From the NCBI RefSeq assembly GCF_033170155.1, contig NZ_CP137079.1:3782001-3846000 (forward strand): DNA of 64,000 bases, read 5' to 3'. Positions 15,711-32,577 of this stretch are shown here, piece after piece. The stretch's first letter is position 1; the number at the start of each line of letters is the position of its first letter. The notes under the pieces were generated by a model that saw nothing but the letters and a program-made list of their open reading frames with translations, was not told the origin of the DNA and ran no database searches. Source of the DNA: Raineyella sp. W15-4. GTDB lineage: Bacteria; Actinomycetota; Actinomycetes; Propionibacteriales; Propionibacteriaceae. A program made the position numbers and the translations under genes.

Positions 15711-17653
15711 GCCACGAGCACCACGGCGGCGGAGGCTCCGTCGCCGTCGCCGAGGGCACCCCGCGGATCGCCCTGGTGGGCAGCCCGAACTCCGGCAAGT
15801 CCACCCTGTTCAACGCGCTGAGCGGCCTGCACGCCAAGACCGGCAACTACCCCGGGGTCACCGTCACCCGGTACGAGGGCCTGACCCAGACCCCGGCCGG
15901 CCCGGTCATCGTGGAGGACCTGCCCGGGGCGTACAGCCTCGACCCGATCAGCCCCGACGAGCAGGTGGTCGACGAGGTCCTCGACCCGGACTGCGACCGG
16001 CCCACCTCTCCGGATGCGGTGCTCGCCACCGTCGATGCCACCACACTGCGTCGTTCGCTCGGGCTGATCGCCCAGGTGCTGACCATCGGCCTGCCGACCA
16101 CGGTGGTCGTCACCTTCACCGACGAGCTGGCCCGCCGCCACGGCCGGCTCGACCTCGTCGCCCTGGAGCGGGCGCTCGGTGTCCCGGTGCGCGGTATCGC
16201 CGCCGGGGATCCCCGCGCGGTCGGCGAACTGCGCGAGCACCTCACCCACGCCCGTCACTGGCCACGGCCGGTGATCCCCCCGCCGACCGACCCCGACGAG
16301 GTGAGCGGCTGGATCTCCTCGGTGCTGGCGTCCGCCGGCTACCGGGTGCCGGACCTGGACACCCGGAGCCAGAAGATCGACGCCGTGCTGCTGCACCCGG
16401 TGTGGGGCACGATCGTCTTCTTCGTGACGATGTTCCTGTTCTTCCAGGTGATCTTCACCGTCGCCGCGCCACTGCAGGACCTGGTCCAGTCGTTCTTCGA
16501 CTGGCTGGCCGGGCTGGTGCAGACGTACGTCCCGGACAGCTGGCTGACCGGGCTGCTGAGCCAGGGCATCATCGGCGGCGTCGGCTCGGTGCTGGTCTTC
16601 CTGCCGCAGATCGCCCTGCTGTTCATCGTCATCTCGCTGCTCGAGGGCACCGGCTACATGTCCCGGGCGGCGTTCCTGATGGACCGGGTGATGGCGCGGG
16701 CCGGGCTGGAGGGCCGGGCGTTCGTCGCCCTGTTGTCCTCGCTGGCATGCGCGATCCCGGGCATCATGGCGACCCGCTCGCTGCCGAGCGCGAAGGACCG
16801 GCTGGCGACCATGCTGTCCGCGCCGCTGATGACGTGCTCGGCCCGGCTGCCGGTGTACGTCATGCTGATCAGCCTGATGGTGCCGGCCGACGTACGGTTC
16901 GGGCCGATCGGGGCCCAGGGCGGGGTGATGTTCCTGCTCTATCTCGGCGGCGCGATCGCCTCGATGGGCACGGCCTGGTTCTTCAGCCGGGTCACCGGTC
17001 GGCGGCAGGGGCAGCTGCCGTTCTACATGGAGATGCCGCCCTACCGGTTGCCGCGGCTGGCCACCGTCTTCCACGCAGTGTGGGACGCCTGCGCGGCGTT
17101 CCTGCGCAAGATGACGACGATCATCCTCGGCGCCACCATCGTGCTGTGGCTGCTGCTCAACCTGCCGACGCCGTCAGCCGCACAACTGCAGCAGGCCGGC
17201 ATCGACCCGGCCGACTCCGGTGCCGTCGCCACCTACACCTTGGACCATTCGGCCGCCGGCGCGATCGGCCACGCGATCGAACCGGTGTTCGAGCCGCTCG
17301 GCTTCGACTGGCGGATCAACATCGGCGTGATCTCCTCGCTGTCGGCCCGGGAGACGTTCGTCGCGACGATGGGTCAGGTCGCCGCCGCGTCGGATCCGGA
17401 GAATCCGGGGACCGCGCTGGAGACGATGACCGTCGACCACGGTCCGCGGGCCGGTGAGAAGCTCTTCACGCCGCCGGTGGTCGGGTCGCTGATGGTGTTC
17501 TTCATGTTCGCGCTGCAGTGCATCGCGACGATGGCGGTGATGCGCCGGGAGACCGGCACCTGGAAGTGGCCGCTGATCGCCTGGGTCTACATGTTCGGCC
17601 TGGCGTGGGTGATGTCGTTCCTGACCCACCTGGTGCTGGGCGCGGTGCTGTGA
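15707..17653 (+). CDS. feoB: Ferrous iron transporter FeoB
   Basis: 648 residues, typical of shorter actinobacterial FeoB. The N-terminal G domain has G1 GSPNSGKST (25-33), G2 NYPGVTVTRYE and G3 EDLPGAYSL. The G4 position reads VTFTDE, with Thr where most G proteins have Asn (NxxD). A GDI-like region follows. From ~220 onwards there are about nine to ten transmembrane segments, with LLSSLACAIPGIMATRSL and the LSARETFVATMGQVAA gate motifs characteristic of FeoB. It imports Fe2+ across the cytoplasmic membrane. It overlaps feoA upstream and a NifU-domain gene downstream (GTGA), so iron entry and Fe-S carriage are co-expressed. Confidence 0.95.
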   Translation: MSHEHHGGGGSVAVAEGTPRIALVGSPNSGKSTLFNALSGLHAKTGNYPGVTVTRYEGLTQTPAGPVIVEDLPGAYSLDPISPDEQVVDEVLDPDCDRPTSPDAVLATVDATTLRRSLGLIAQVLTIGLPTTVVVTFTDELARRHGRLDLVALERALGVPVRGIAAGDPRAVGELREHLTHARHWPRPVIPPPTDPDEVSGWISSVLASAGYRVPDLDTRSQKIDAVLLHPVWGTIVFFVTMFLFFQVIFTVAAPLQDLVQSFFDWLAGLVQTYVPDSWLTGLLSQGIIGGVGSVLVFLPQIALLFIVISLLEGTGYMSRAAFLMDRVMARAGLEGRAFVALLSSLACAIPGIMATRSLPSAKDRLATMLSAPLMTCSARLPVYVMLISLMVPADVRFGPIGAQGGVMFLLYLGGAIASMGTAWFFSRVTGRRQGQLPFYMEMPPYRLPRLATVFHAVWDACAAFLRKMTTIILGATIVLWLLLNLPTPSAAQLQQAGIDPADSGAVATYTLDHSAAGAIGHAIEPVFEPLGFDWRINIGVISSLSARETFVATMGQVAAASDPENPGTALETMTVDHGPRAGEKLFTPPVVGSLMVFFMFALQCIATMAVMRRETGTWKWPLIAWVYMFGLAWVMSFLTHLVLGAVL

Positions 17654-18279
17654 GCCCCTCCCCCGCCGCCCCGACTGTCGCCGTGCATCCCGAGGCCACT
17701 GCCGATCCGCGGACCATTCGCTGGGTCGTTCCCGCGGGAACGTTCGACTTCGTCGGCGCCCCACGGGTCGTCCCCGGGGCTCTGCAGGCGCTGCTCGACG
17801 ACGGGTCGCTGAGCGCGATCGCGGTGGAGCCGGCCGCCGTGCTGACCACTGCGGGGGTCGGCAACCCACTGGCCGACCCCGCCGGGCCCGACCCCACCAC
17901 TGACACCTCGGAGACGTGGCACACGCTCGGCGGCCCGGTGCGCCGGGCCCTGCTCGCAGCCCTGGCCGATCCCACCGACTGGCAGGCTGCGTCCTCCCTC
18001 GACGCCCTGCCCGGCGCGGTGCTGGCGGCGGCCGTCGAACAGATCATCGCCGGGGAGGTCGGGGCGTACGTACGCTCCCACGGCGGCAGCGCCCAGCTGG
18101 TGCGCGTCGAGGGCAGCGTGGCGACCATCGCCCTGGACGGCGCCTGCTCGGGCTGCCCCGCACGAGGAGCGACGCTGGGGTTGCGCTTCGGCCGGGCGGT
18201 CGAGGCACTGTGCCCCGGGGCCGAGGTCGTGCTCGAGGAGAACGGTGTGCCGCTGCTGTTGCGGTGGGGGCGACGGTAG
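17650..18279 (+). CDS. NifU C-terminal-domain protein (Fe-S scaffold/carrier type)
   Basis: 209 residues from a GTG overlapping the feoB stop. The C-terminal ~75 residues are a NifU-C/Nfu domain: EQIIAGEVGAYVRSHGGSAQ, VATIALDGACSGCPARG with the Fe-S-binding CxxC, and LCPGAEVVLEENG. Residues ~15-130 contain a Nfu-N-like region (GTFDFVGAPRVVPGALQALL, ALLAALADPTDWQAA). Nfu proteins deliver [4Fe-4S] clusters to target enzymes. The operon position, directly after feoAB, suggests use of newly imported iron or cluster-based iron sensing. The full length and CxxC look intact. Confidence 0.85.
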   Translation: MSPSPAAPTVAVHPEATADPRTIRWVVPAGTFDFVGAPRVVPGALQALLDDGSLSAIAVEPAAVLTTAGVGNPLADPAGPDPTTDTSETWHTLGGPVRRALLAALADPTDWQAASSLDALPGAVLAAAVEQIIAGEVGAYVRSHGGSAQLVRVEGSVATIALDGACSGCPARGATLGLRFGRAVEALCPGAEVVLEENGVPLLLRWGRR

Positions 18280-24149: not shown

Positions 24150-24165
24150 ATACCCCGACGGGTAT
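24150..24165. promoter_or_regulatory. CsoR/CstR-type operator before the sulfide operon
   Basis: ATACCC-CGAC-GGGTAT is a perfect palindrome ending nine bases before the ATG of the SQR-like gene. It matches the ATACCC-N4-GGGTAT pattern of CsoR-family repressors, notably the persulfide sensor CstR, which controls sulfide-oxidation genes. The regulator gene is not visible nearby. Confidence 0.7.
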
Positions 24166-24174
24166 CCTGACCGC

Positions 24175-25410
24175 ATGAGACGGCTCCTCATCCTCGGTGC
24201 CGGTACCGCCGGCACCATGCTCGCCAACATCCTCCGTCGCGAGCTCACCGAAGACTGGGCGATCACCGTGGTCGACAAGGACGACGACCACCCGTACCAA
24301 CCCGGTTACCTCTTCATCCCGTTCGGCACCTCCACGCCCGAGCGGATCGTCAAGCCACGGACCCGGTTCCTCCCCCGGGGGGTGGACTTCATCCAGTCGG
24401 GCATCCGCACGGTCCGGGCCGACGACGACCAGGTCGACCTCGAGGACGGCCGGGTGCTGGCGTACGACTGGCTGCTGATCGCCACCGGCACGGTGCCGCG
24501 GCCCGACCTCACCCCGGGGATGGCCGACGGCCCGCTCTGGTACAGGAAGATCTTCGACTTCTACACCCTGGAGGGCGCCACCCGGCTGCACGACGCCCTC
24601 GAGGCGTTCCAGGGCGGCAAGATCCTGGTGCAGCTCACCGACATGCCGATCAAATGCCCGGTGGCGCCGCTGGAGTTCGTCTTCCTGCTGGAGGACTACT
24701 TCCGCAAGCGCCGGATCCGCCACAAGGTCGACATCACCTACGTCACCCCGCTGGACGGGGCCTTCACCAAACCGGTCGCGTCCCGGGAGCTGGGCAACCT
24801 GCTCACCGACCGCTCGATCCGCCAGGCCACCGATTTCGCCGTGGAGCGGATCGACAACGACCGGCAGGTGATCGTCTCGTACGACGGCCGGGAACTGCCC
24901 TTCGACCTGCTGGTCACCATCCCGCTGCACACCGGCCAGCAGTACGTGTTCGACTCCGGCCTCGGCGACGACGCCGGCTTCGTCCCGGTCGACAAGCAGA
25001 CCCTGCGGTCCACCGCGTACGACAACATCTTCGTGCTCGGCGACGCCAGCAACATCCCGACCTCGAAGGCGGGGGCGGTGGCGCACTTCGCGGTCGAGAC
25101 GTTCGTCCCCAACTTCCTGGCACTGATCGACGGCAAGCCGATGCCGAACCGCTTCGACGGGCACGCGAACTGCTTCGTCGAGTCCGGCCGCGGCCAGGCG
25201 CTGCTGCTCGACTTCAACTACGACACCCAGCCGCTGACCGGCACCTTCCCGCTGCCGGGCGTCGGCCCGCTGAAGCTGCTCGGCCGCTCCCGGATGAACC
25301 ACCTGGGCAAGCTCGCCTTCGAGCAGATCTACTGGAAACTGCTGCTGCCCGGGCACCGGCTGCCCGTCCCGACCCTGATGTCCATGGCCGGCAAGCACGA
25401 GGAGGATTGA
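24175..25410 (+). CDS. Sulfide:quinone oxidoreductase-like FAD-dependent enzyme
   Basis: 411 residues from the ATG at 24175, directly after the palindrome; upstream in-frame codons would cross the operator. FAD-binding Rossmann LLILGAGTAGTMLANIL (4-20), YDWLLIATGTVPRPDL, and the second FAD contact NIFVLGDASNIPTSKAG. Cysteines at 161 (MPIKCPVAPLE) and 333 (GHANCFVESG) correspond to the redox pair expected in SQR enzymes. The C-terminal amphipathic helices would anchor it to the membrane. SQR oxidises sulfide to persulfide/polysulfide and passes electrons to quinone. The two genes that follow encode sulfur-carrier proteins, supporting a sulfur role. Confidence 0.85.
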   Translation: MRRLLILGAGTAGTMLANILRRELTEDWAITVVDKDDDHPYQPGYLFIPFGTSTPERIVKPRTRFLPRGVDFIQSGIRTVRADDDQVDLEDGRVLAYDWLLIATGTVPRPDLTPGMADGPLWYRKIFDFYTLEGATRLHDALEAFQGGKILVQLTDMPIKCPVAPLEFVFLLEDYFRKRRIRHKVDITYVTPLDGAFTKPVASRELGNLLTDRSIRQATDFAVERIDNDRQVIVSYDGRELPFDLLVTIPLHTGQQYVFDSGLGDDAGFVPVDKQTLRSTAYDNIFVLGDASNIPTSKAGAVAHFAVETFVPNFLALIDGKPMPNRFDGHANCFVESGRGQALLLDFNYDTQPLTGTFPLPGVGPLKLLGRSRMNHLGKLAFEQIYWKLLLPGHRLPVPTLMSMAGKHEED

Positions 25411-25411
25411 C

Positions 25412-25726
25412 GTGCCCACCAACACCCTCAACGACCGTACGTTCCAGGTGAACGACGAGGGCTTCTTCACCAATCGCGACGAGTGGAGCGAGGACCTGGC
25501 CACCGACCTGGCCGCGCTCATCGGCATCGAGATGGACGAGGCGCACTGGGCGCCGATCCGCTTCATGCGCGAGGACTCCGCGACGTCCGGCGTCACCCCC
25601 ACCCTGCGCCGGATGCAGACCGTGGGCGGCTTCGACATCAAGGAGCTCTACCTCCTCTACCCCGGCAAGCCGGCCAAGAAGATGGCCTGGATCGCCGGCC
25701 TGCCCAAGCCCGTCGGCTGCGTCTAG
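25412..25726 (+). CDS. TusE/DsrC-like sulfur carrier with one C-terminal cysteine
   Basis: 104 residues from a GTG one base after the SQR-like stop. The DsrC/TusE pattern is clear: VNDEGFFTNRDEWSEDLAT, HWAPIRFMREDSATSG, and the C-terminal arm GLPKPVGCV with penultimate Cys103. In DsrC proper a second cysteine lies 11 residues before it; that position is Ala92 here (KMAWIAGL). The protein can therefore carry a persulfide but cannot form the intramolecular trisulfide-type bridge used with sulfite reductase. It is TusE-like in this respect. It probably accepts sulfane sulfur generated by the upstream oxidoreductase. Confidence 0.88.
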   Translation: MPTNTLNDRTFQVNDEGFFTNRDEWSEDLATDLAALIGIEMDEAHWAPIRFMREDSATSGVTPTLRRMQTVGGFDIKELYLLYPGKPAKKMAWIAGLPKPVGCV

Positions 25727-25775
25727 TCGGCACCATCCCGTCGACCACGATCGACCGACGGATCAGGAGAACATC

Positions 25776-26438
25776 ATGACCACCACGGAAGCACGCACCG
25801 CTCCCGCCCGGATCCCCGACGGATTCATCATGCCGGACTTCGGCCGCGTCCCCGCCCCGGCCGGCGCGGCCACCGGTCCGGCCGGCACCACCGCACCCGC
25901 CGAGGCGTACGCCGCCGGCACCCCCACCTACACCGGGCCGCGCAAGATCGCGTTCATCTGTTCCAAGGGCAACCTGGACATGGCCTACCCCGCGCTGATC
26001 ATGGGCAACGCCGCGCTCAGCGAGGGCTGTGAGGTGCACATCTTCTTCACCTTCTGGGGCCTCGACATGGTCAACCAGAAGACCAACAAGAAGCTGCAGT
26101 TCACCATCTCCGGCAACACGGCGATGCACATGCCGGCGCTGGGCAACCTGAGGCCGGGACTGGAGCATGTCTCGCTGCCCCAGCAGCTCGGCGGGCTGCC
26201 GGGGATGAGCGCGTACGCCACCCGCTACTTCAAGAAGGAGATGGCCGAGCTCGACATCCCCGACGTCCCGGAGTTCCTCGACCTGATGGCCGCCCAGGGC
26301 GCCCACATGTACGCCTGCCGGTTGACCTTCGACATGATGAAGCTGCTCGAGGCGGATCTGCACCCGGCCGTCGAGGGCGTCATCTCGGCCTCCGACTTCA
26401 TCGTGATCAGCGAGGGGGCGCAGGTCATCTTCATCTGA
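25776..26438 (+). CDS. DsrE2-like DsrE/DsrF/DrsH-family sulfurtransferase
   Basis: 220 residues; ribosome site AGGAG before the ATG. After a ~45-residue Ala/Pro/Thr-rich N-terminus, the core begins RKIAFICSKGNLDMAYPALI, continues EGCEVHIFFTFWGLDMVNQK and SAYATRYFKKEMAELDIP, and holds a conserved cysteine in MYACRLTFDMMKLLE. It ends with SDFIVISEGAQVIFI. DsrE2 proteins move persulfide sulfur between carriers such as TusA and DsrC. It is the third gene of the operon behind the CsoR/CstR-type palindrome. No membrane helix is obvious, although some DsrE2 relatives are membrane-associated. Confidence 0.88.
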   Translation: MTTTEARTAPARIPDGFIMPDFGRVPAPAGAATGPAGTTAPAEAYAAGTPTYTGPRKIAFICSKGNLDMAYPALIMGNAALSEGCEVHIFFTFWGLDMVNQKTNKKLQFTISGNTAMHMPALGNLRPGLEHVSLPQQLGGLPGMSAYATRYFKKEMAELDIPDVPEFLDLMAAQGAHMYACRLTFDMMKLLEADLHPAVEGVISASDFIVISEGAQVIFI

Positions 26439-31539: not shown

Positions 31540-31665
31540 TCGACAGGTCCGCGGCGGCCTAGCCTGAGTCCCTGTACGTCGTCCCAGCGTTGCCGTGTCC
31601 CTCCCACACGACTCGACCCGATGACACCTGTTCGTCCCGTCAGTCGTCTCCCCAGGAGGTCCGTC

Positions 31666-32577
31666 GTGTTCACGCTCGCCGACACACCGGTGAAATTCGT
31701 CGCCCTGCTCGTCCTGTTCCTCTGGTGCACCGCATGGTCCGTCTACGAACTCACCCGCCCCCAGGACCGCACCCAACGGGTGTCCAATGTGCTGCACCTG
31801 GTGATGTCCCTCGTCATGCTGATCATGGTGTCGTCACTGACCTGGAAGCCGTTCGCCGCCCTGATCCCCGGTCCGGCACAGATCGCGGTCTTCGTCCTCG
31901 CCACCGCCTGGTTCATCGGGCTGGCGGTGACCCGACGCGCGAGCCGCGGTCACTACCTCGGCCACGCCGCGATGTTCGGCGCGATGGCCTGGCACCTGAC
32001 CGGCATGGTGATCAAGATGCCGCTGATGAGCGCCGGCATGCAGAGCACCGGCTCGGGCATGGGCGGCATGAACGGCATGGGTGGCATGCAGCACGGCGGC
32101 TCCGGCATGCCCGGCGCGAGCACCGGCATGGGCGGCATGAGTACCGGCTCCGGCCTGACCCCGCTGGCCGAAGCCTCCCAGCCGGGCGGCTCGGTGTGGA
32201 TCGTCGCCCTGGTCGGCATCCCGTTCATGGTGTACCTGCTGGTCGCCGCGGTCCGCGACCTCGTCACCGCCGTACGCCCCACCCCGGCCGGCCACGGGCA
32301 CACCACCGGGCACCATCACGCGTCGGTGCCCGCCCAGACCCTCGCCGTCGCCGACACGGACGGAACCGAACACATCACGACGCACACCGCGCACGCCACC
32401 CAGACCGTCGAACAGCCCCAGGCCTCGGTCGCCACCTGTCACGAGGTGCGCCCGACCGGCTCGGTCACCTTCCGGCTGGCCGCACTGGCCGGTTTCGCGA
32501 TGAACTTCGGGATGTTCTGGATGTCGACCGGCCTGCTGACGCCGATCCTGCCGTGGATGAAGCTGCTGGCGTTCTGA
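31666..32577 (+). CDS. DUF5134 membrane protein with Met/His-rich loop
   Basis: 303 residues from a GTG at 31666 preceded by a perfect AGGAGG (31654-31659); the ATG at 31621 has no such site. Membrane helices lie at ~9-25, 40-58, 66-85, 92-110, 170-190 and 275-295. Between the fourth and fifth is a loop packed with methionine and glycine (GMGGMNGMGGMQHGG, STGMGGMSTGSG). A His-rich segment follows (GHGHTTGHHHA). Such Met/His clusters bind Cu(I) in periplasmic copper proteins. DUF5134 has no known function. A copper link is inference, strengthened slightly by a CsoR-like box upstream. Confidence 0.8.
   Translation: MFTLADTPVKFVALLVLFLWCTAWSVYELTRPQDRTQRVSNVLHLVMSLVMLIMVSSLTWKPFAALIPGPAQIAVFVLATAWFIGLAVTRRASRGHYLGHAAMFGAMAWHLTGMVIKMPLMSAGMQSTGSGMGGMNGMGGMQHGGSGMPGASTGMGGMSTGSGLTPLAEASQPGGSVWIVALVGIPFMVYLLVAAVRDLVTAVRPTPAGHGHTTGHHHASVPAQTLAVADTDGTEHITTHTAHATQTVEQPQASVATCHEVRPTGSVTFRLAALAGFAMNFGMFWMSTGLLTPILPWMKLLAF

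Follow-up and report, generated by a model that had tools for sequence, protein, structure and literature searches.

A putative CstR-controlled operon joining a sulfide:quinone reductase-like flavoprotein with a single-cysteine DsrC and a DsrE2-like protein in Raineyella sp. W15-4

Behind a perfect CsoR/CstR-type palindrome, the genome of Raineyella sp. W15-4 carries, on one strand and in close succession, the genes of a sulfide:quinone reductase (SQR)-like flavoprotein, of a DsrC-family protein with one cysteine and of a DsrE2-like protein, and this arrangement recurs in a wide range of Actinobacteria. We consider it likely that these genes form an inducible, CstR-controlled operon for sulfide oxidation and sulfane-sulfur handling, in which a type III SQR would deliver sulfur to DsrE2 and DsrE2 to a single-cysteine, TusE-like DsrC. 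The genes lie in a window of 64,000 nucleotides (contig NZ_CP137079.1, positions 3,782,001 to 3,846,000), whose numbering is used below except where genome positions are indicated.

24150–24165, no strand assigned: operator ATACCC-N4-GGGTAT of CsoR/CstR type, a perfect palindrome
24163–24168, + strand: possible -10 box TATCCT, read from the sequence, overlapping the right half-site of the operator
24175–25410, + strand: type III SQR-like flavoprotein of Cys type, 411 aa (NF049943, SQOR fold)
24655–24657, + strand: codon of Cys161, the SQR catalytic cysteine, invariant in 108/108
25171–25173, + strand: codon of Cys333 in the motif DGHANCF, Cys in 108/108
25412–25726, + strand: single-Cys DsrC/TusE-family protein, 104 aa (TIGR03342, PF04358)
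25718–25720, + strand: codon of Cys103, the penultimate residue and proposed persulfide carrier, 108/108
25776–26438, + strand: DsrE2-like sulfur carrier, 220 aa (PF13686, fold)
26316–26318, + strand: codon of Cys181, counterpart of the conserved DsrE2B cysteine, 102/106, aligned with the Cys of 2QS7

Protein families, conserved cysteines and gene order

The flavoprotein scores 597.9 bits against the NCBIfam model NF049943 (type III sulfide quinone reductase, selenoprotein subtype; cut-off 525), and its predicted structure, with a pLDDT of 92.7, finds its nearest fold in human SQOR (TM 0.87, E 5e-38). Since the nearest fold is that of human SQOR, the structure does not settle whether the protein is of type II or III: NCBIfam assigns it to type III, human type II enzymes are its best relatives of solved structure, and there is no type III structure among the structure matches. 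The protein has exactly two cysteines, Cys161 and Cys333, which are the pair that a first-pass annotation of this DNA had pointed out and which are both retained in all 108 sequences compared. Cys333 is taken as catalytic because the aligned residue is selenocysteine in seven coriobacterial relatives, in which its codon is TGA (motif DGHAT-TGA-F, that is, DGHATUF); the placement of this TGA matches the HxxU motif given for the NF049943 selenoprotein family (PMC13188914). Judged by its sequence, the enzyme would oxidise sulfide with reduction of quinone.

The second protein falls within the DsrC/TusE family (TIGR03342, 70.2 bits with a cut-off of 53.5; PF04358, 93 bits), while its score against the TusE equivalog, 53.6 bits, is far under the cut-off of 191. 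Its one cysteine is Cys103 and the position of the second cysteine of DsrC (CysB) is occupied by Ala92, exactly as the first-pass annotation had read it, so that the pair of cysteines (CysA and CysB) used to recognise the DsrC of the Dsr pathway is incomplete. That annotation had also held that a second cysteine in the orthologues would speak against its reading; among 108 sequences position 92 is Ala in 82, Ser in 24, Thr in 1 and Cys in just 1. The single-cysteine form is thus the rule of its clade (Ala or Ser in 106/108) and no local anomaly, and carriers with one cysteine have a precedent in E. coli TusE, which has Thr at the CysB position and a single C-terminal cysteine. In a tree of 76 sequences a branch with 100/98 support sets all SQR-linked DsrCs apart both from TusE and from the DsrCs with two cysteines that other Actinobacteria have; the second cysteine is present in all 19 unlinked actinobacterial DsrCs that were inspected.

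The third protein matches PF13686 with 98 bits, and the best folds for its model are 3PNX and the DsrE2B protein 2QS7; its score against the NCBIfam DsrE2 equivalog, 86.5 bits, is under the cut-off of 210. Cys181 is conserved in 102 and Cys62 in 92 of 106 sequences. The earlier proposal that two sulfur carriers, DsrC and DsrE2, lie beside the SQR is supported. The DsrE2-like protein also has an N-terminal extension of some 55 residues (25776–25940), rich in Pro and Ala and modelled with low confidence.

The association of these genes was analysed in a phylum sample of 396 actinobacterial genomes, in which 34 SQR matches of the NF049943-type family were set against 59 matches to DsrC. A DsrC gene on the same strand and within 1.5 kb accompanies every SQR of Cys type (27/27) and none of those with an in-frame TGA (0/7), which indicates that the enzyme itself does not depend on the carriers. 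At the Sec-type loci the SQR has neither DsrC nor DsrE2 as a neighbour on its own strand, and one of these loci has a divergent two-Cys DsrC next door, on the opposite strand. A further set of 80 relatives, taken from named records, gave a comparable picture: 79 have a DsrC behind the SQR and 78 a DsrE2, and the exceptions lie at contig ends. These relatives span many actinobacterial families, along with two metagenome-assembled genomes labelled Bacteroidales and Chlorobiota. At nine loci an extra DUF1641-like gene lies between SQR and DsrC.

Operator and regulon

The operator ATACCCCGACGGGTAT at 24150–24165 is a perfect palindrome which, as had been noted at first pass, precedes the flavoprotein gene: it ends 9 nt before the ATG at 24175, and the gap is 9–10 nt when the congeners are included. 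It is the same as the ScCsoR site ATACCn6GGTAT, experimentally shown in S. coelicolor (PMC7533328). No other match with up to two mismatches occurs in the remainder of the window, and a count over the 3.96 Mb genome gave 3 sites that are perfect and 12 that have at most one mismatch, against 0 for the reversed pattern. In the relatives, a site with at most two mismatches precedes the SQR gene in 39/80, compared with 0.3% of dinucleotide shuffles and with 0/240 control windows taken from within the operon; the operator is lacking at this place in about half of the relatives. An origin of the operator by chance is rejected on the reversed-pattern, shuffling and within-operon controls. A second type of regulator, consisting of an HTH_17 domain and an unassigned C-terminal domain in which cysteines are conserved (NPC, C...W, CAR), is encoded just 5' of the SQR in 14/80 relatives, and 13 of these 14 are without the CstR-type operator (Fisher p 7e-4, uncorrected for kinship); it is possibly an alternative sulfur sensor.

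A consensus scan for promoters and terminators yielded nothing useful. The TAT of the right operator half could begin a -10 element of the form TAnnnT, in which case a repressor bound there would block the promoter. This pattern is found at the corresponding spot in 15 of the 29 relatives with an operator near the start, all three congeners among them, and the box is near enough to the ATG for a leaderless promoter to be possible.

We carried out the search for CsoR/CstR genes suggested by the first-pass annotation, and the genome holds two genes of the CsoR family. One encodes a CsoR-like protein, adjoins a CopZ-like gene and has its own operator-like site, one mismatch off; the other encodes a protein with the two CstR cysteines and without the CsoR His, and has the operator in front of it. 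On this sequence pattern the CstR-like protein is the probable repressor of the operon, but a copper-type CsoR with a similar site is also present and might bind the operator instead. In four genomes of the genus (this one and three congeners) the operator precedes the CstR-like gene and that of a thioredoxin (TrxA) in 4/4, and a YgaP-like TM gene and that of a CoADR-rhodanese in 3/4, while in one congener a perfect operator precedes the gene of a PDO-rhodanese. The CoADR-rhodanese of the present genome is a rhodanese-domain flavoprotein of CoA-disulfide-reductase type and lies outside the operon. The earlier assignment of the operator to the CstR/CsoR type is in keeping with both results, namely a CstR-like protein in the genome and an operator common to other persulfide-related genes. 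For the sites at an SQR2-like gene (genome position 1093547), Trx2 (3747406), ADH (1750762) and ALDH (3203588) the same gene was not recovered in the congeners, and these four are therefore not counted in the regulon.

Further sites were noted in the genus. At genome position 402733 an operator precedes genes for a 58-aa protein and for a cation diffusion facilitator, and at 704170 an operator-like site with one mismatch is near the start of a SixA-like histidine phosphatase, both in 4/4 genomes; two congeners have a perfect operator close to a ClC-type chloride channel-like ORF.

Sulfur transfer and competing readings

The partners usually expected for these proteins were searched for in the whole genome, including the TusA, Hdr-like and PDO genes that had been named at first pass. 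No DsrA match was found at E <= 0.001 and no TusA; two different queries for PDO-rhodanese gave only rhodanese domains or generic MBL-fold proteins; and CCG-domain hits, as sought for Hdr-type proteins, were limited to a single ORF, which is LutA-like and has a lactate permease-like ORF next to it. A Dsr pathway was accordingly rejected for want of dsrA, and Hdr-like sulfur oxidation was rejected with the LutA-like ORF as the only source of CCG hits. The statement of the first-pass annotation that Dsr sulfite reductase, PDO and rhodanese are all missing holds for the operon and does not extend to the regulon, which has the rhodanese-domain CoADR-type protein in this genome and a PDO-rhodanese in a congener. 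Elsewhere in the window, the C-terminus of an ORF at 17518–18279 reads by eye like a NifU-type Fe-S scaffold domain, and 31621–32577 encodes a His/Met-rich membrane protein with a DUF5134 domain, possibly metal related.

In a resting cell, the CstR-like repressor, encoded elsewhere in the genome, would sit on 24150–24165, probably overlapping the promoter, and would be released when persulfides modify its two cysteines. The SQR would then oxidise H2S by means of FAD and the pair Cys161/Cys333, passing electrons to quinone and keeping the sulfane sulfur, which Cys181 of DsrE2 may take over and hand to DsrC, at Cys103 on the end of its C-terminal arm. We infer this order and direction of transfer by analogy with the DsrEFH-DsrC relay of A. 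vinosum and the Tus relay of E. coli. Having no second cysteine, the DsrC should carry persulfide on one thiol, in the manner of TusE, and should not serve as a substrate of DsrAB or DsrMK. From there the sulfur might go to products of the regulon (CoADR-rhodanese, thioredoxin or, in a congener, PDO-rhodanese) or to another acceptor, CoADR-rhodanese and thioredoxin being the nearest candidates. Reduction of the sulfur by either of these two would return H2S, which fits homeostasis and not net detoxification. Of the sulfide detoxification or trafficking route first proposed, the role in sulfide and persulfide metabolism is supported.

Among the other explanations, the one that survives best, albeit as an unlikely one, is that the DsrC is a TusE and that DsrE2 and DsrC feed MnmA for 2-thiouridine formation in tRNA, with the SQR as the supply of sulfur. 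E. coli TusE, too, has a single cysteine, at the C-terminus, and lacks the one of the CysB position; the genome encodes MnmA (291 bits); and the absence of TusA makes another source of sulfur conceivable. However, the DsrC misses the TusE equivalog cut-off by a wide margin, belongs to a clade apart from TusE and is linked to an SQR and a persulfide operator; besides, nearly all control genomes have MnmA, whereas an SQR-linked DsrC was seen in only 27/396 sampled actinobacterial genomes. It also seems improbable that the flavoprotein works in reverse or on another substrate, removing sulfane sulfur from DsrC or DsrE2 as a polysulfide or persulfide reductase or as some other disulfide oxidoreductase. 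Many coriobacteria are anaerobic, and such a function would suit both the coriobacterial origin of the Sec-type relatives and the other reductases in the regulon, but the fold and the cysteine pair are those of an SQR and NCBIfam names the family SQR.

Equally improbable, in our view, is a copper-responsive operon, in which a canonical CsoR and not the CstR-like protein is in control and the sulfur proteins answer copper stress. The CsoR adjoining the CopZ-like gene has an operator only one mismatch off and the two types of site look alike; against this, the other genes of the regulon are persulfide-related (CoADR-Rhd, Trx, YgaP-TM, PDO-Rhd) and the ScCsoR site of Streptomyces is a sulfane-sulfur site (PMC7533328). 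Finally, although reverse-Dsr and Hdr-like sulfur oxidation are the pathways for which the DsrC and DsrE families are best known, an ordinary remnant of such a pathway is hardly credible given the lack of a DsrA match, CCG hits confined to the LutA-like ORF and a DsrC that has no second cysteine and belongs to a separate clade.

Relation to known sulfur systems and significance

The operon resembles the CstR/YrkD-type sulfide operons of Firmicutes, such as S. aureus cst and B. licheniformis yrkD-yrkE-yrkF-yrkH-yrkI ... sqr-pdo (PMC9918477), in that a CsoR-family persulfide sensor, SQR, DsrE-family carrier, thioredoxin, rhodanese and PDO are brought into one regulon. The carriers of the Firmicutes clusters are, however, DsrE, TusA and rhodanese, PDO is part of the cluster and no DsrC is listed, whereas here the operon includes a DsrC, the genome lacks TusA and yielded no PDO-rhodanese, and the regulon is scattered. 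With the ScCsoR circuit of S. coelicolor, made up of four genes (sensor, PDO, rhodanese and sulfite transporter; PMC7533328), the system shares the operator and the actinobacterial two-Cys type of CsoR-family sulfane-sulfur sensor, but that circuit is without SQR, DsrC or DsrE2. The combination of a single-Cys DsrC-family carrier with DsrE-family proteins recalls E. coli TusABCDE, where TusE is downstream of them; yet TusE forms a separate clade, has no known link to an SQR or this operator and serves tRNA thiolation. In A. vinosum, the transfer from DsrE-family proteins to DsrC is the model for the relay envisaged here, although that DsrC has two redox cysteines and DsrAB/DsrMK as partners, and in the present case both CysB and DsrA are absent. 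The selenoprotein subtype of NF049943 (PMC13188914) is of the same family, with the Sec of HxxU at the place of Cys333; here Cys stands for Sec and DsrC and DsrE2 are adjacent, whereas the Sec forms are without carriers in the loci examined.

The single parts are known, and their combination, with a DsrC working without a Dsr enzyme, appears to be undescribed. No description of SQR, DsrC and DsrE2 as a unit was found in the incomplete body of literature searched, and this absence is weak evidence.

DsrC is known for its part in dissimilatory sulfite reduction and, as TusE, in tRNA thiolation, and the role of acceptor of SQR sulfur is usually given to small thiols. We put forward tentatively, as a possibility that we would not yet call probable, a third use of the DsrC fold, in which DsrE2 and, after it, single-Cys DsrC relay the sulfane sulfur unloaded by the SQR and take the place of a small thiol, sulfite or polysulfide. 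Such a relay would be widespread in Actinobacteria, often under CstR-type regulation, and would operate without a Dsr enzyme and here without TusA, while Sec at the active site of the SQR would go together with carriers absent from the operon. As the operon is present in culturable genera, including Nocardioides, Tessaracoccus, Intrasporangium and Cellulosimicrobium, the unit can be tested. If the proposal is true, the large SQR-adjacent clade of actinobacterial DsrCs would represent a third job for DsrC, a protein acceptor for SQR-derived sulfur would have been identified, and dsrC would be a poor sign of Dsr metabolism in Actinobacteria.
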